The notes beneath the pieces are model-generated. The model did no database searches and was not told the origin of the DNA. It saw only the letters and a program-made list of their open reading frames with translations. A program made the position numbers and the translations under genes. 64,000 nucleotides of DNA from contig CP009479.1 in the NCBI GenBank assembly GCA_000965745.1, forward strand, positions 1-64,000. Reading direction: 5' to 3'. The number at the start of each line of letters is the position of its first letter. The stretch's first letter is position 1. Shown one piece after another: positions 1 to 43,578 of this stretch. This stretch comes from an uncultured archaeon (GTDB lineage: Archaea; Thermoplasmatota; Thermoplasmata; Thermoplasmatales; Thermoplasmataceae).

Positions 1-1268
1 GACATTGTCAAAATTTAGTTGACTCCACTCAGCCCTCATCACGTAACCGAAATCATGAAATATGATTGTAGTATTCCATCACATGCGACTGAGGAAGGCG
101 CCCTACACTGAATTCAAGAGGGTTTCCACATCCCTTGACGATTATGCCTCAGTTGATTCTTCTCCTCTCTTCCTGGTCAACAACATTCCCATGATGGACA
201 TTGAACTGAAGGAAAACGATCTGATCAGCTTCATGAATCCCATGTGCCCGCAGTGCCGCTCAAAGAACGTGGTTCGAAACGGAACATGCCTCAGGACCCT
301 GGAGAATGGTACTGTATTCAGGGTGCAGAGATATATCTGCAGGGACTGCAGATATTCATTCGTTGCAAGGCCTCCAAATTACGGTTACGGAAAGCATTAC
401 CCTGAGGATGTCAGGGAGAAGGGCGTCAAGACCAGGGTGAAGACATCCCTGAGGAAGGCAGCAGACCTCTTCCGCATCATAGGAAACGTGATCATATCCC
501 ATGAAACCATCAGGAAATATGTTCCTTCCCTACCAGACATGGTGATGGTTTCTTCCGGATATTTCGTGTATGACGAGCAGTACGCACACATTGACGGAAT
601 CGAGAAATACAGGGCACTCCTGAAGGATTCAAAGAACGGAAACTTTGTGGAAGAGATACTTGACGACCTGAAGGAGGATACACTGGCAGGATTCTTAATC
701 AGGTCGCTCTCGAGGTTCGCCATCCCGGATCATATATTCATCACAACAGACGGGTACCATTACGAATCCGCACTGGAAAAGGTATCTTCAAGCCTCAATA
801 TACGGATAATGAGGCAGAGGTGCCTCTTCCACATTGAGAAGGATCTTGCGCACAGGATAGCCGATGCAAAGATGGAAGGTCATCTGGACATGGCAAAGAG
901 ACTGGTCAAGTACATGTTTTTCCAGAATAGAACAAACCTGAAGAAGCTGGGAAAGAACCGGGATGCGGTGTTGAAGCTCACTGAGGGCATGAGTGAGAGG
1001 GAGATCGTTGAAATAATGCTTGACAGGATCAACAGCCTCTATGGCGGTGACAGTATCATGGCATCCTTCCTCAAATGGGTGAAAAAGCACAGGAAGGAGG
1101 TGTTCCTGTATCTTGAGAATCCTGATGTGGAGAAGACCTCAGACAAGGCGGAACAGCATTTCTCAGTACAGTCATGGCTTTTTAAGCACCGGTTCAAGAC
1201 TGAAGAAGGTCTCCTGCGGACATCCTACTGGTATCACCGGTACTTATCAACCGGAAGTTGACAATGTC
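1..1268 (+). mobile_element. Insertion sequence with 11-bp terminal inverted repeats
   Basis: The first 11 bases (GACATTGTCAA) are the exact reverse complement of bases 1258-1268 (TTGACAATGTC). Six bases further in on each side a second 5-base match (GTTGA) lies at the same offset, so the ends look like one extended transposase binding site. The element contains one transposase gene that ends inside the right repeat. The right end sits inside a type IIG restriction-modification gene. The left flank is outside the window, so a target-site duplication cannot be checked. No family name is given because it would need a database comparison. Confidence 0.88.
62..1261 (+). CDS. Zinc-ribbon DDE transposase
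   Basis: The 399-residue protein has an N-terminal zinc ribbon (C62-x2-C65 and C93-x2-C96), then a helix-turn-helix-like stretch around residues 125-155, then a probable RNase-H-fold catalytic core. Candidate acidic residues are D171 or D178, D230 (in ITTDGY) and E364 (in AEQHFS). This layout is that of an IS transposase that cuts and joins DNA ends. The reading frame is intact and fills the element between its inverted repeats, so it may still be active. The second Met (residue 8) is an alternative start. The stop codon lies within the right terminal repeat. Confidence 0.85.
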   Translation: MIVVFHHMRLRKAPYTEFKRVSTSLDDYASVDSSPLFLVNNIPMMDIELKENDLISFMNPMCPQCRSKNVVRNGTCLRTLENGTVFRVQRYICRDCRYSFVARPPNYGYGKHYPEDVREKGVKTRVKTSLRKAADLFRIIGNVIISHETIRKYVPSLPDMVMVSSGYFVYDEQYAHIDGIEKYRALLKDSKNGNFVEEILDDLKEDTLAGFLIRSLSRFAIPDHIFITTDGYHYESALEKVSSSLNIRIMRQRCLFHIEKDLAHRIADAKMEGHLDMAKRLVKYMFFQNRTNLKKLGKNRDAVLKLTEGMSEREIVEIMLDRINSLYGGDSIMASFLKWVKKHRKEVFLYLENPDVEKTSDKAEQHFSVQSWLFKHRFKTEEGLLRTSYWYHRYLSTGS

Positions 1269-3236
1269 GATCAACAGTACAACAGCAAACTATTTGCGAA
1301 GCACCTGTGCGATGACTTATATCTCGACAATGAGGTGTTGCTAGAGGTAATTGAGGGGCTAAATCACTCTAGAGATAACTCATACAGATATAATTTCTCC
1401 ATAATAGAATCAGACGTTCTTGGGAATATCTATGAACAGTATCTGGGAAATATTCTCAAGACCACACCAAAGAGGGCCAAGCTATCGGAATCAATGACAC
1501 ATAGGAAAGAACAGGGCATTTACTATACGCCTTCATATATTGTTGATTATATTGTCAAGAACACTGTTGGCGAATACATAAAAACACATACACCAGAGGA
1601 AATCAAGAATGTCAAAATAGTTGATCCAGCATGTGGTTCTGGAAGCTTTCTGATAAGGGCATACAAAGAGCTTGAGAATTATTGGAAAAGGGAGTTGAAG
1701 CTTGACGAAAGCGATTTGAAACAGACAAGATTTGACTTAGAGAATTCAGAAAAAGTATATACCCTTAAGACCGAAATTCTTAAAAACAATATTTTCGGAG
1801 TTGACCTTGACCCGAAAGCCGTGGAAATTGCTCAGTTGAATTTGTTATTGCAGATATCAGAGAGAAAGCATAGATTACCAGAACTTCAAAGGAATATAAA
1901 GATTGGAAACAGTCTGATAGATGATCCGACTGTAAGCGATAGGGCCTTCAAATGGGAAGAGGGATTTACAGAAATAATGGAGATGGGAGGCTTTGACATT
2001 GTTATTGGTAACCCCCCTTACATTAAATCTAGAGACGCCAAGGATATAGAAGCACGAAAGTTCATTGAAAATTCTGGAAAGTATGAGACACCATACAAAA
2101 TGTGGGATATGTTTGTCCCTTTTGTTGAGAAAGGGTTAAAACTACTAAGAGAACATGGTAAGTTTTCGATGATCATCCCCGATACCATAGGAGTAACCGA
2201 CTACACTCAAAAGCTGGGAAAGATGATTGTCGATAAATATTCATTGTATCAAATTGATTTCTTTCCCGATATAGAGGTATTCACAAAAGTCGGAGTAAGA
2301 AGTAAGATTATTTTCGTTCAGAATGATAAAAAGATAACCAAGTGTAAACGTGTTATACACGAAAAAGAAATTACAAATGAGAGGGTGCTTGACAATTCAA
2401 CAAATGATGACTACAGTGTTTTCAGGATAAAAGCACCAATTATTAAATTCAAGTTGGAAAATACGATCCCCTTGGGCAATATTTGTTATGTAAGTTATGG
2501 TGCTAGATTTAACAGCGATAAGGATGACCCATTGAAATTCAAAAAATCTGATTTATTATCTACAGCAAAGGATAACGTCCATGCTCGTGCATACACAGAA
2601 GGGAAATACCTCGATAAGTTCAGGATTGTTAAGAGACTCTACGTAGAATGGGACACCGACAGAAGCCCTTCCAGGTTGGTCAGACCAACTTTTAGAGAAC
2701 TCTATGAACCGGAAAAACTTCTCATGGCAAGGCAAAAAAGAGTTATTGCATATTCAAAAAATAAAGAAATCTGTGATAATACAATAGTTGTGGGCGTTCC
2801 TTATTTCTCCCTTAAGAATGTTTATAATTCACACATATCAAAATATTTTACCAACACCGGTATGGTTCGAAAGGAAGTTGAAGAAATTTCAGAGAAATTC
2901 CATATAAAATACCTACTAGCAGTTCTAAACTCGAATCTTATCCAATATTTACTCAGAACTAATAATCGAAGTAAAATAGACACATATCCAGACGATTGGA
3001 AAAATATTCCAATAAAATGCATTGAACCAAAGGTACAAAGTGAAATATCTTTGGTTAGCGAAAGACTTCTCGAATTAAATGACAAATTAAATGAAATTCA
3101 AGACCTCAAGACGGACGAAACAGTCTTGGTCATTGAAACAGTTCGAAAATTGGAATCCGAGATAAACCAGTTGGTATACGATGTGTATGATGTAGATGCG
3201 AGAGATATAGAGGTAATTGAAGACTACCTAAAATAG
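1269..3236 (+). pseudogene. Type IIG restriction-modification enzyme (Eco57I-like), 5' end removed by IS
   Basis: The remaining protein carries the adenine-N6 methyltransferase motif I (DPACGSGSF, near 1621-1650) and motif IV (GNPPY, near 2006-2022), followed by a C-terminal target-recognition region. Single-chain type IIG enzymes normally begin with a nuclease domain and are roughly 1000 residues long; that half is missing here because the insertion sequence ends at 1268. The frame is open backwards through the IS end to an ATG at 1113, so a fusion protein of about 707 residues could be made. The first Met within the native part is at 1494. Methylation activity without cleavage is conceivable, but loss of function is more likely. 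Confidence 0.82.
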
Positions 3237-4688: not shown

Positions 4689-5270
4689 ATGACTAAGTAC
4701 CGGCAGACCCTTCTCGATGAGGAGACACACCAACTCATTGGCAGGGGTAAAAGGATCCTGCAGAAGAAGTTTGGTCATCCTTTTAGTGTGGCTGAAACCA
4801 TAAAGCACTACATGCGAGGTAGTTTAATGCTTGATGAACTCCCTAAACCAGTAAGGGAATATGTTAACGAGTTTGTGGCAAGGATAGCTGTGGATGAGAA
4901 GGTATTAGGGGTAGTCCTGTTTGGCTCTTATTCAAGGGGCGACCATACAAAATTCAGCGACATTGATATATTTATTGTTTACAACGGAGAAAAGGCGGAC
5001 GCCTACCGCATGATTTTCTCACACGACCAGGAACTCAAAAAGAATAAAAATGAAATGAGTAATTCCGGCTACTATTCAGACATTGAGCCGTTCATAGTCC
5101 CATATTATGATTTGGATGTTTTTAAGCCCATATACTTGGGTATCCTGAGAGATGGGATAATGCTCTTCGAGAGAAAATCTGTGATTTCAGAATTTTTCAG
5201 ATGGGTCATGGGCGTCGAGAACAAAAGAAGCATCATAGATTCCAGTGAGGTCATAAATTGGACCCTCTAG
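4689..5270 (+). CDS. MNT-type nucleotidyltransferase, putative antitoxin of a MNT-HEPN pair
   Basis: The core carries the minimal nucleotidyltransferase signature GSYSRGDHTKFSDIDIF (GSxxRG...SDxD), with the two metal-binding aspartates of the polymerase-beta fold. The first 40 residues (LDEETHQLI...FSVAETIKHYM) resemble a short ribbon-helix-helix-like DNA-binding segment, which is an inference. The last codons overlap the HEPN gene by 13 bases, so the two are translationally coupled. In known MNT-HEPN pairs the nucleotidyltransferase modifies and neutralises the HEPN partner. A TATA-like box 25 bases upstream suggests a leaderless message. Confidence 0.75.
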   Translation: MTKYRQTLLDEETHQLIGRGKRILQKKFGHPFSVAETIKHYMRGSLMLDELPKPVREYVNEFVARIAVDEKVLGVVLFGSYSRGDHTKFSDIDIFIVYNGEKADAYRMIFSHDQELKKNKNEMSNSGYYSDIEPFIVPYYDLDVFKPIYLGILRDGIMLFERKSVISEFFRWVMGVENKRSIIDSSEVINWTL

Positions 5271-5674
5271 CGAAAAGAGCCCTGGAAAGCTCATACAGAT
5301 GGTTGTCAAGTTCAGATTCCTCATATAAATTGGAGGCCTATGACATTGCAGTTTATGAATTGGAAATGGCTGGGGAGGTGGCACTTAAGTGCTTGCTCAT
5401 AGAGAAACACTACGATGTTCCCAAGAGACATAATGTATCAAGGATCATTCGTGCGTTAATCCATGATGTCCAGATCGTGCCGATTGATAAATCTTCAAGG
5501 TTTGAGGAGTATCTTGACCGATTCGATCAGGTTGTGAGAATGAGAGGTGATGCAGGCTATAGTTATGAATCATCACTGGATCTAGAAGGATTCAAGGAGA
5601 TATACAACGATTACTTTGAAACAATTAAAGAACTCTTAGATTTCACATCAGATATAGTGACCGGATTGGAATAG
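5258..5674 (+). CDS. HEPN-domain protein, putative toxin partner of MNT
   Basis: The 138-residue all-helical protein matches the HEPN family typically paired with minimal nucleotidyltransferases: an AxxxLExAxExALKxLL-like helix (residues 31-48), a RHNVSRI segment at 57-63 and a C-terminal helical part. The start is a TTG at 5258 that overlaps the end of the upstream gene. A classical Rx4-6H ribonuclease motif is not clearly present, so an RNase activity cannot be claimed. Together with its neighbour it forms a plausible toxin-antitoxin or substrate-modification pair within the accessory zone. Confidence 0.72.
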   Translation: MDPLAKRALESSYRWLSSSDSSYKLEAYDIAVYELEMAGEVALKCLLIEKHYDVPKRHNVSRIIRALIHDVQIVPIDKSSRFEEYLDRFDQVVRMRGDAGYSYESSLDLEGFKEIYNDYFETIKELLDFTSDIVTGLE

Positions 5675-6097: not shown

Positions 6098-6583
6098 CGC
6101 AAGCGCTCCAGAAAGCCAAGAGGCGAGGATGCAAAGACAAGAAGATCTGAGGATGGTGCATCTGAAACGAAGAACCATGAGAAGCATTTCTGGTACAAGA
6201 TGCACTCGCTGGTGAATGAGATCAAGATCCTCGAGAGACTGTCAGTAACGCCTGCCAACGTGCACGACTCACAGATAGATCTGAGCATTCCCGGAATAGT
6301 ATGCTACCGTGACAGGGGATACTTCGGCTCCGGTTGCAGGGGAATCGATGCCGCCATGGATATGGCAGTGAGAAATCACAAGCTTCCCATGAAAAGCGTA
6401 CGGCGAAACCTAAGGATATCCAGAATAAGATCGCTTGTGGAACATCCATATGCATTCTTCAGGAGGATATTCCACTTCGCGCATGTGATGGTCACAACTG
6501 TGCAGAGAGTGCGGGTGAAGACATACTTCACTGCAATATGCTGCAACCTTGTCAGGGCAAGATATCTTGACAGGATAGCGTGA
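6098..6583 (+). pseudogene. IS5-like transposase, C-terminal fragment
   Basis: The translated fragment has typical IS5/DDE_Tnp_1 features: KFWYK-like HFWYKMHSLV, TPANVHDSQ, the CYRDRGYFG segment with the second catalytic aspartate, and RSLVEHPYAFFRR with the catalytic glutamate. Only the last third to half of a transposase is present. The frame is closed upstream by a stop at 6095, and no start belongs to it naturally (an internal ATG lies at 6200). No inverted repeats were recognised. It is a decayed relic that adds to the mobile character of this region. Confidence 0.78.
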
Positions 6584-6743
6584 GCCCTCGAATTTTAGGG
6601 GAAATAAGAGAAATATACAGCAATAATACAGCCTGATGCAGTTCTTTTACTGTTATCATGCATCATTGAAGACAATAAGCAGTATTGTTGAAGTGTAATG
6701 GCAGGTTTTGGGAAATTCTCATGCTACTATTTGCAAGCTTACC

Positions 6744-6751
6744 TTTAAAAA
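6744..6751 (+). promoter_or_regulatory. TATA-like box deciding the start of the 6772 gene
   Basis: TTTAAAAA preceded by ACC is centred about 25 bases before the GTG at 6772. This supports a leaderless start there rather than the earlier in-frame ATG at 6685. Confidence 0.5.
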
Positions 6752-6771
6752 CATTACTACTATCGTTTTTG

Positions 6772-7701
6772 GTGAGAGTAAACGACATTGATAAGCATCT
6801 TGACATGAGGCTTGTTCTGCGCCTCAGGCAAGATACAGAGCTCTTCAGCGCCACTGCGAACTTCAGCAAACCTTTGCCTGTTTTCATTTACGAAAACGAG
6901 GGAAAGATGTTCATGAGCACATATTTCCCAAAGCAAACTGATAGAAACGACATGAGTTTGCTTCTTCGAAAATTTGAAGCCGATGAAAAGGAAGATTCGT
7001 TTGTAACAACCACGAGAATAAACAACGTTAAAGATCTTGCAATAATCAGGAAACTTCTCGATCTTCCATCGATGACTCTAAACAGGGCAGATATTAGCTC
7101 AGGTTTTCTGAACGTTTATGCGAGATTCCATAGCTGTAACCTTGATGAGGTTTCCCACATACTCTCCGAATACACTTCTGACCGGGCAAATTCCAGAGTC
7201 GAGTGGTTGGGTCCGTCCCCTGGAATAATACAGATAATGGACCTCATCAACTCACAATATCCCATTTCATTGGTCACTTACGAAATAAGTGACGATGACA
7301 ATTCTCCACATAGCCTTTCCAAGGCAGGGAATGTACTGGTGGAGGTAAAGGGAGCAGACTCTGAAAGTGAGTTTAGCAGCATCTTATACGCGGACCCTTG
7401 GGAGATGGACAGGCTTCCTGAGGGAACCACAAAAATATCACCTGATGAAAGGGTCCACAGCTTTACCTTTTCTAACAGGTTCCTCGGCATGGTCAGGGAT
7501 AGATCCAACCGGGCTCACATCATAAGAATGAGGTTCTTCGTCAAGCCCCTAAACGGGAAACTGGAGGTTTCAACCTTTCTTCCAACAAGCCAGGTGTACG
7601 AATATTATTCTATCCTGTACGACGTGGCAAGGCTTGAAAAAAACTCCATTGTTGTGAAGTACCTTATGCCATATTCAAGTGATCTGTGGGATTTTATCTG
7701 A
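6772..7701 (+). CDS. Uncharacterised protein, paralogue 1 of a divergent pair
   Basis: The protein of about 309 residues is not recognised. It is clearly paralogous to the product at 8429-9337: both share RLRQDTELF/ALQQDNELF near the N-terminus, a mid-protein block VEWLGPSPGI.../LLYLGNSPGL... ending in VTYEI/VIFEI, and a C-terminal block with FFVKPLNGK/MFVKRKGDQ and LPTSQVYEYY/MPSNQINGYL. The first 170 residues resemble in layout the sensor half of archaeal HTH_10 (Bat-like) regulators, but no helix-turn-helix follows; this is an inference. It has no signal peptide or membrane segment, so it is probably cytosolic. The GTG start is chosen for the TATA box 25 bases upstream. Confidence 0.6.
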   Translation: MRVNDIDKHLDMRLVLRLRQDTELFSATANFSKPLPVFIYENEGKMFMSTYFPKQTDRNDMSLLLRKFEADEKEDSFVTTTRINNVKDLAIIRKLLDLPSMTLNRADISSGFLNVYARFHSCNLDEVSHILSEYTSDRANSRVEWLGPSPGIIQIMDLINSQYPISLVTYEISDDDNSPHSLSKAGNVLVEVKGADSESEFSSILYADPWEMDRLPEGTTKISPDERVHSFTFSNRFLGMVRDRSNRAHIIRMRFFVKPLNGKLEVSTFLPTSQVYEYYSILYDVARLEKNSIVVKYLMPYSSDLWDFI

Positions 7702-8428
7702 CAGTCAAATTAAACAGACTGTTTCCTGATTCATGTTATCTGAAACCTTTGTCAGACTCGTTGAGAGTACACAAGGATGACGGGGGAAACTGGGACGCAA
7801 AAACTCCAGGGAGGCTTCAGATTTCAAGAAGAACCGGCCCACATCTGTGAAAGGGTTCAGAAATTCAGGAGCCGTCTCACAATAGCAATCAGATGTGCAG
7901 ATCTCAACCACCAGGGGGTTGGAATAAAGCCGGAGGATTCGATAATGCATGCAGCGATCTCATGCTTCGATGGAACTTCGGGAAAGCCCCTGCACACATG
8001 CCTCATTTCTGCACTGAGGTAATTCGACATTGAGCAAATGAATGCCCTCCTTTGATAAACAAGGAGATTGATACTGAAGCAAAGGACTGGGACGAAGTTC
8101 TCTGGATGTCGCTTCGATGTGTGTTATTCCCACTGTGAGTTCGTCGATGAAAACTCATATAGCAAGGATGGGAAAAGACCGAAACTAGATTCCATGGCTT
8201 CCTGAATTTCTGACTCTCCAGTAAAAGGCATATTGGCGTACAGGTCACTGAATCTCAATTCAGCTATATGCATTGAACTCCCGGCAGAAGTATATTATTT
8301 TCCTCAACTATTGGTCATTTTTTAATTAACTTTGAAAATAGCAACATAGAATCCCATATTTTTCATTTCGTAGATGTATTTATAAAGAGAAAATTTAATA
8401 ATATTTCGATGATGCATCTCGAGTTTAT
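7702..8428 (+). other. 727-base stretch without a supported gene
   Basis: Short frames exist on both strands (for example 7777-8022 on plus) but none resembles a known family, and in-frame stops interrupt any longer reading. The last 60 bases are very AT-rich and hold TATA-like runs (TATTTATAAAG near 8377 and TTTAATAATA near 8394) that probably drive the next gene. The rest may be decayed coding sequence lying between the two paralogues. Confidence 0.5.
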
Positions 8429-9337
8429 ATGTCTTTTCTTGAATCCGGTGGAGGCCTTGATACAAGATGCATACTCGCTCTGCAGCAGGACAACGAGCTT
8501 TTCAAGTTTCTCAAGTCGATAAGAGGCAAGATTCCTGCTTATATATTCCTGGAAGGCAATAATGCCCAGCTTCAGCTATACTTCAACTGTGAAGACACGA
8601 ATGCCCACGATATCTCCTTTCTTGAAAAATACGGTGCGATAAAATTCGATGAAGTTTATGTCATAAAACAGAAGATCAGCAATAGGGATGAATTGGGCAT
8701 TATAAGCAAGCTGATTTCGGAATATATGGTTGCCTCAAATGCCGTGTATGTGTCAAACGGGTGGCTTATTGTTGACCTGAGGTTCCACGGATCAAAATAC
8801 CGGAGTGTATCACAGATACTTGCAACACATATGCACAAAACCCAAAGGATCAGGCTGCTCTACCTTGGAAATTCGCCTGGCCTATCGACTATTTTAGACG
8901 AGCTTAACTCGGAAGTCCCTCTGTCTACTGTCATCTTTGAGATTCCGCTGGAAGTTGCAAATGTCCCGGACTCTCTTCTCAGGGAGGACATTGATCTTCT
9001 TGAGACTGAAAACAGCCTGCTTCTTGATAACAAAATCAAGGTGATTCTTTACGGGAAAGACGAAGAAGGGAATCTCGTTGCCATATCCGAAGATCATGTT
9101 ACAAATATACTACTCTCTGAAATAAGGAAAAGGGCCAATGAGCAGATGATTATAAGGTATAACATGTTTGTAAAGAGAAAGGGTGATCAGGTCCGAATGC
9201 TGGTGATCATGCCTTCGAACCAGATAAACGGATATCTCAGGACCGTGTTTTCAGTTGCCATGGAGAATCACCAGTCCCCGGTGTCACTGGTTGCTGCTGC
9301 CCCCTACGGAAAGGATGTTATCAAGTCCTTTACCTGA
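8429..9337 (+). CDS. Uncharacterised protein, paralogue 2 of a divergent pair
   Basis: This 302-residue soluble protein shares three blocks with the product of the gene at 6772 (see that entry), in the same order and spacing, so the two arose by duplication and diverged strongly. Residues 1-160 hold a tandem alpha/beta pattern, the middle block LLYLGNSPGLSTILDEL follows, and the C-terminal 90 residues include MFVKRKGDQVRMLVIMPSNQ. No catalytic motif, metal site or DNA-binding motif was found. AT-rich promoter-like sequence lies 25-50 bases upstream of the ATG. Confidence 0.6.
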   Translation: MSFLESGGGLDTRCILALQQDNELFKFLKSIRGKIPAYIFLEGNNAQLQLYFNCEDTNAHDISFLEKYGAIKFDEVYVIKQKISNRDELGIISKLISEYMVASNAVYVSNGWLIVDLRFHGSKYRSVSQILATHMHKTQRIRLLYLGNSPGLSTILDELNSEVPLSTVIFEIPLEVANVPDSLLREDIDLLETENSLLLDNKIKVILYGKDEEGNLVAISEDHVTNILLSEIRKRANEQMIIRYNMFVKRKGDQVRMLVIMPSNQINGYLRTVFSVAMENHQSPVSLVAAAPYGKDVIKSFT

Positions 9338-42948: not shown

Positions 42949-43578
42949 TCACAGATTGTTGTCAAAATAATTTTTCACTATTTTCTTAAGTCCTCTCCTT
43001 AGAACATCCCTAAGGGAGGATGTTGAAACTCCAAGACCTTCCGCGACTTCCTTCATTGATGTCTGCCTGTCAGGTTCGAAATATCCTTTTTTCAGGGATA
43101 TAAGAAGTATTTCCCTTTCCCTGTCTGTCAGCGTAAGTTTCGAGCCTTCTTCAAGGCTAATCAGCCTCGGTTCCAGGTCGTTCTTCTCCATGTCCTTCAG
43201 TATAACGTCAAGCTTCCTCTTTGAACTGACAAGTACCCTGTAGAGAATGTGCTCCCTGTCGGCTGCCTTGTTGCTGAGAACTGCCATGTCAGAATTGGCG
43301 ACAAACTTGCATGCTGTGCAGCTTACCCCTTCAGCCCAGATTGATTTCTTCCCTTCCCTGGTCACTTTGGTTATGACTCCCCTGAGTTCCCTCATCTTGG
43401 AAATCATGTTCTCCCTGTCTATAGTGCATGTTATCTTGTGCATGGTGAGTTCAGGGCCTATCTTCAGCCTCTTGACCTCTGCCTTCGGATCCTTCTGGTT
43501 TACTACATTGGTAACCCAGCAATCAGTTCTTGACACCTCTATCAGGGCTTCTACTGAATTCTTGGAATTAGCTGACAT
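42949..43578 (-). CDS. HTH_10 (Bat-like) transcription regulator
   Basis: The 209-residue protein ends in a helix-turn-helix of the archaeal bacterio-opsin-activator type: TLTDREREILLISLKKGYFEPDRQ (key parts LTDREREILL and GYFEPDR), then SMKEVAEGLGVSTSSLRDVLRRGLKKI. The first 130 residues form the usual sensor half, with cysteines in EGVSCTACKFV that might bind metal. It probably controls nearby genes such as the convergent yceI or the cupredoxin gene, which is only an inference from position. Confidence 0.85.
   Translation of the reverse strand: MSANSKNSVEALIEVSRTDCWVTNVVNQKDPKAEVKRLKIGPELTMHKITCTIDRENMISKMRELRGVITKVTREGKKSIWAEGVSCTACKFVANSDMAVLSNKAADREHILYRVLVSSKRKLDVILKDMEKNDLEPRLISLEEGSKLTLTDREREILLISLKKGYFEPDRQTSMKEVAEGLGVSTSSLRDVLRRGLKKIVKNYFDNNL

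Follow-up and report, generated by a model that had tools for sequence, protein, structure and literature searches.

The closest described relative of the two proteins analysed here is Ta1207 of Thermoplasma acidophilum, a member of Pfam family PF19020 ('Ta1207') whose structure has been solved as PDB entry 5M86. The entry holds 10 chains of one sequence, which fits an oligomer, and the paper on the structure reportedly describes Ta1207 as a homopentamer. The literature searched for Ta1207 or PF19020 contains no functional characterisation.

KaiC-like ATPases are a second point of reference. They are presented as archaeal signal-transduction hubs in a passage of PMC5847659, which attributes this view to Makarova et al. 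2017 and also brings up fusions of receiver domains with BcsA-like glycosyltransferases and with KaiC; KaiC homologues are likewise discussed as regulators of partners in a part of PMC13286277.

Two full-length members of the Ta1207 family

The window—the whole 64,000-nucleotide stretch of archaeal DNA that was analysed—carries two adjacent genes for proteins of about 300 residues, as an earlier note on this DNA had claimed; both open reading frames (ORFs) are present and intact on the forward strand (Table 1). The first can be read as a longer ORF (6685-7701) that opens at TTG 6685, and GTG 6772 is the better start because the orthologues open with MLVRDIDxKLDMR, which the window matches from this codon (V/M-RVNDIDKHLDMR). 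A TATA-like stretch is visible by eye before each gene, so that the promoters of their own claimed for them stand as candidate promoters; the one before protein 1 would fit a nearly leaderless transcript. The spacer between the genes was searched for a remnant gene, with 0 matches in 40 other genomes (1 of 41, the window's own).

Table 1. Features of the locus and its surroundings in the window.
Feature	Position	Strand	Remarks
Eco57I-type restriction-modification methylase gene	1113-3236		PF07669, E=2.3e-37
Nucleotidyltransferase and HEPN genes, adjacent	4689-5674		PF01909 and PF05168
DDE transposase fragment	6200-6583		PF01609, E=2.7e-6; just upstream of protein 1
TATA-like stretch	6744-6751	+	TTTAAAAA; 20 bases ahead of GTG 6772; read by eye
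Ta1207-family protein 1 gene	6772..7701	+	Intact ORF; 309 aa counted from GTG 6772
Intergenic spacer	7702..8428	.	727 bases, between the genes of proteins 1 and 2
TATA-like stretch	8379-8387	+	TTTATAAAG; ahead of ATG 8429; read by eye
Ta1207-family protein 2 gene	8429..9337	+	Intact ORF; 302 aa, ATG 8429

Proteins 1 and 2 align by BLASTP over 300 residues with 29% identity (E=1e-32) and are therefore paralogues over their entire length. Against the PF19020 profile (277 positions, curated cut-off 26.3 bits), protein 1 scores 213.7 bits (E=3.4e-63, profile positions 1-276) and protein 2 scores 140.5 bits (E=6.9e-41, profile positions 1-275), both above the cut-off and across the full model. The description of the two as divergent paralogues is borne out by these comparisons, whereas the statement that they share three ordered blocks but little else was too weak, as the homology follows the same profile end to end. 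The only other Pfam match at E<=1 lies below its cut-off, and neither protein contains a DNA-binding domain detectable by Pfam, in agreement with what had been proposed; NCBIfam, also searched at E<=1, gave no match to either.

A family profile was made from a 26-member alignment of the two window proteins and 24 of 32 other loci, from which near-duplicates or close relatives (L007, L009, L011, L015, L020, L021 and L023) and one sequence with an inner stop (L032) had been dropped. A single-sequence search of the PDB failed to detect 5M86, but this profile matched its chain A with E=1e-17, the next best match being at 0.12. An AlphaFold2 model of protein 1 (pLDDT 85.4, pTM 0.83) was obtained from an alignment of 16 sequences, namely the two window proteins and 14 of 16 further loci, leaving out L065 (stop) and L080 (fragment). 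In a Foldseek search the model retrieved 5M86 at the top (E=1.3e-17, TM 0.78, 14% identity) and no other structure at E<=0.001, and VIA-align gave a Z of 27.2 over 297 of 309 residues; for protein 1, the one modelled, the fold of the solved member is matched. Because both proteins match PF19020 over their whole length and the model of protein 1 matches 5M86, the pair belongs to a named, functionally uncharacterised family and is not a new one. The confident whole-protein match that the earlier note had named as the finding that would speak against it is thus in hand as regards membership, and it leads to a family to which the literature searched assigns no function.

Matches of the model to further folds cover one half at a time: residues 159-306 superpose on 3AB4 with a Z of 8.2 (rmsd 2.1 over 80 residues) and residues 10-150 on elongation factor domains with a Z of about 6.5. 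The ACT-like matches have Z values of 5.6-8.2, and because this is a range noted as common, the predicted division of protein 1 into two ferredoxin-like or ACT-like halves is used here as a description of the model and not as a functional claim.

Distribution of the family and linkage to a KaiC-like ATPase

Matches to Ta1207 at E<=0.001 occur in 89 of the 117 genomes of the order Thermoplasmatales, and every one of these belongs to one of two families, f1 or f5; a single genome can have as many as 14 matches, and that of the window has four copies. A sample of the phylum gave 38 matching genomes out of 389, all from the same order, and all 14 named control genomes lack the family, which as far as sampled is restricted to the acid-loving Thermoplasmatales. 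The genes are clustered: among 18 genomes that are at least 90% complete, 41 of 98 Ta1207 genes (100 rows, with three fragments of one broken gene merged) lie no more than 5 kb from a further copy, where 1000 random placements gave a mean of 4.5 and a maximum of 16. Broken copies are also seen, one in three fragments (G044:C1:1574012-1574777), two with one inner TAG (G048:C1:1853776-1854564 and G078:C41:257444-258271) and another with an inner stop in G095; these suggest that copies are still being gained and lost.

Comparison of the neighbourhoods of relatives' loci revealed a KaiC-like ATPase gene adjoining Ta1207 genes in six of them; the two of these ATPases that were scanned match PF06745 (E=2e-40 and 1.5e-36). 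When an alignment of these proteins (A6) was used as query, 31 of the 117 genomes matched at E<=1e-30. For counting, 37 of the 43 matches were used (E<=1e-100, 26 genomes), omitting one fragment of a gene that was already in the count and five weak matches (E about 1e-32 to 1e-33). A Ta1207 gene lies within 5 kb of 24 of the 37, in 23 of the 26 genomes, where about 2% would be expected at random; the linked genomes belong to genera g2, g5, g10, g13 and g29, and because genomes of these genera are related the 24 linkages are not independent. The remaining 13 comprise 10 genes in g29, mostly second copies, and three in g5; of these three, two have their start no more than 500 bases from the end of a contig, and the third has its Ta1207 gene at a distance of 6.3 kb.

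A gene for a GT2 glycosyltransferase (PF13632 and PF13641; a Cellulose_synt match in L092 is below cut-off) stands beside KaiC in 11 of 11 mapped loci of family f1 and in 0 of 11 of family f5. The order in g2, g5 and g13 is Ta1207-KaiC-GT2, often with Ta1207 again, on one strand and mostly with short gaps, an arrangement that suggests an operon. As a rule a KaiC locus has two Ta1207 paralogues that differ from each other, and the linked members fall mainly in two clades: on a tree of the family the KaiC-linked label changes 5 times as against 24.1 times for shuffled labels, a contrast inflated by near-copies. As separate observations, the first ~120 residues of the Ta1207-linked ATPase have no Pfam match (L081, L082, L083, L090-L092, L137-L143), and genus g29 has a 357-residue KaiC-like copy with neither Ta1207 nor GT2 nearby (L124, L125, L127, L128, L130, L132, L133).

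Of 12 candidates scored in the genome of the window, none is a KaiC of this type at E<=1e-30, and the KaiC-linked Ta1207 module, defined by an A6-type KaiC within 5 kb, is accordingly absent from that genome; nor is there a KaiC near the protein 1 orthologues (0 of 16 loci, several with short flanks). The linkage in relatives lends indirect support to the proposal that the pair acts on a partner protein, with the reservation that the window's genome lacks that particular partner.

We tentatively favour the reading that Ta1207 proteins are non-DNA-binding, oligomeric regulatory or adaptor proteins that act through a partner. As oligomers they would take up a ligand or a second protein and relay the resulting state through the partner, which would probably be the KaiC-like ATPase where one is present; in one family the output would probably be the GT2 glycosyltransferase. 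Because KaiC is described as a signalling hub, the linked members may well have a signalling or regulatory role. For the window copies we infer it only by extension, because their genome has no such KaiC and none accompanies the 16 protein 1 loci; the two proteins would have to use another partner or act alone. In a more specific form, which we regard as rather doubtful, Ta1207 proteins would be Thermoplasmatales-specific oligomeric input subunits of a dedicated KaiC-like switch, with two paralogues per KaiC setting its state; the switch would govern the GT2 of the same operon in one family, and stand-alone copies would serve other partners.

It is unlikely, but worth weighing, that Ta1207 proteins are instead enzymes of some undescribed reaction, with the active site where domains or subunits meet and with paralogues that differ in substrate. 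The growth of the family, to as many as 14 matches per genome, would fit a variety of substrates, and many polar or aromatic positions are invariant among the protein 1 orthologues of different genera (e.g. N84, N85, K87, D88, R105, D107, R118, H120, R142, H249, R252, R254 and E277). Over the 26 sequences of the wider family, however, G111 and F119 are the only invariant residues, where a shared catalytic residue should have persisted, and linkage to KaiC and GT2 is more easily read as regulation.

Ta1207 proteins reach up to 14 matches per genome in extreme acidophiles and have a solved structure with no role found in the literature searched; linkage to KaiC, usually with two paralogues at a locus, supplies a testable partner for this family and is the useful outcome of the analysis. 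The significance of the window's own two genes is modest, since the KaiC partner was absent from the search of their genome.

Adjacency of the two genes and their surroundings

Orthologues of protein 1 were found in 19 of the 76 other genomes of its family (E<=1e-75, 43-54% identity, one with a stop), followed by four genomes of genus g15 at 33-35%. Protein 2 has a single close match in the same 76 genomes, in G106 (55% identity), after which identities drop to ~32% or less. This orthologue lies on contig C150, flanked by ORFs of 604 and 423 residues, and the protein 1 orthologue of G106 is split, with one piece at an end of contig C1 and the other at an end of C57; the two orthologues thus share no contig, and their neighbours are unrelated. 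In a tree of 82 rows, with 22 of 79 inner branches left open for low support, protein 1 groups with its orthologues of many genera and protein 2 forms a long branch of unsure placement. No neighbour of the protein 1 orthologues is shared across distant genera; within close groups neighbours are shared (e.g. L068/L072, L075/L078, and L099 with L073 and L080).

Because orthologues of protein 1 occur in 19 of the 76 genomes and that of protein 2 in one, and elsewhere in it, the pairing in the window is not a conserved unit. The earlier idea of a dedicated pair, with the two proteins forming an obligate heteromer, is for this reason improbable, and each gene also seems by eye to have its own TATA-like box; it draws on the two genes being adjacent on the same strand, on the two different paralogues that most KaiC loci of relatives carry, and on relatives in which a Ta1207 domain is fused to a very divergent second half. 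Side by side as they are, the two genes look more like one of the family's usual local clusters than like the parts of an obligate heterodimer.

The fused forms are single ORFs of 654-677 residues (L086:6913-8874, L087:3541-5508, L088:1034-3064), in which the Ta1207 domain is followed by a second half with a weak match to the family profile, or none in L086; a similar divergent half stands as a separate ORF at L025:400-1374. In genus g17, proteins of ~90-105 residues are encoded on both sides of the protein 1 orthologue (L099:7406-7675 and 8833-9111; L185:541-810; L186:442-759); the one relative of these that was scanned, L066:4553-4825, has no Pfam match.

The two genes were also said to lie between mobile-element relics. 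A transposase fragment is indeed found upstream of protein 1, and downstream of protein 2 the neighbour is a radical-SAM gene on the opposite strand, which leaves a relic on one side only. With a restriction-modification gene nearby, along with a nucleotidyltransferase/HEPN pair whose layout we take to be that of minimal toxin-antitoxin pairs, one could regard proteins 1 and 2 as lineage-specific accessory cargo of local mobile DNA, such as a toxin-antitoxin or defence component, and the variable copy number and broken copies of the family (the three fragments in G044, the stops in G048, G078 and G095) would suit this. We consider it distinctly improbable: 19 other genomes keep protein 1 at 43-54% identity, neither protein has a match in PADLOC, PHROG gave none at E<=0.001 (one weak row at 0.012), and no relative was found in viral contigs when these were queried with an alignment of the family (A2) and with protein 2.

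Comparison with described regulators

The first half of each protein had been likened to the sensor half of HTH_10 regulators. The HTH_10 protein of the window (42949-43578) is genuine (PF04967, E=2e-15) and served as positive control in the same Pfam scan, in which proteins 1 and 2 have no HTH_10 C-terminal domain at E<=1; HTH_10 matches were present in all 61 family genomes searched. Two Ta1207 alignments, A1 (26 members) and A2, were compared with HTH_10 alignments of 14 (A3) and 5 (A4, including the window's own protein) of 30 HTH_10 loci, and the probability was <1% for A1 against A3, A1 against A4 and A2 against A3. A wider comparison by hhalign, of 87 Ta1207 members with 5 groups of sensors drawn from 67 HTH_10 proteins (three single sequences aside), reached a best probability of 2.4% (P=0.02), out of register, and the iterated 87-member profile retrieved no HTH_10 protein at E<=1 from the pooled ORFs. 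The likeness is thus not supported by profile-profile comparison, and an HTH_10 origin of the first half was rejected at the level of sequence, nothing significant having been found. A model of the HTH_10 protein made from one sequence (pLDDT 35.8) was unusable for fold comparison, no solved homologue of the HTH_10 sensors was found, and two scans of viral contigs for HTH_10 relatives gave none.

That the pair derives from HTH_10 regulators by keeping the sensor half and losing the DNA-binding domain is very improbable given these profile results and the members matching over half their length, in which no HTH domain is visible by eye, even though the strand and helix order of the first half is similar by eye and both families are multicopy in the same genomes. 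The strand order is alike by eye, but ferredoxin-like folds are common.

Among described systems, the HTH_10 (Bat-like) regulators of PF04967 therefore resemble the pair in the strand order of the sensor half as judged by eye, and differ in that the pair has no HTH_10 domain and no detectable profile similarity to them. The ACT and ferredoxin-like regulatory domains, such as those of aspartate kinase (3AB4) and the regulatory subunit of acetohydroxyacid synthase (2F1F), resemble the second half of protein 1 at the level of the fold; the likeness comes from the predicted fold and not from sequence, and the Z values may reflect a common arrangement. Ta1207 of T. acidophilum (PDB 5M86, PF19020) agrees with the pair in a whole-length profile match and, for protein 1, in the modelled fold. 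Its identity to protein 1 is nevertheless 14%, and in the tree a long branch separates the Ta1207 copy itself (L098:7664-8647) from both window proteins; the same genome has a copy nearer to protein 1 (G097:C1:829848-830783, 33% identity). The KaiC-like signalling hubs of Makarova et al. 2017, as cited in a passage of PMC5847659, compare with the family through gene linkage, a KaiC-like ATPase being the linked gene in five genera here.
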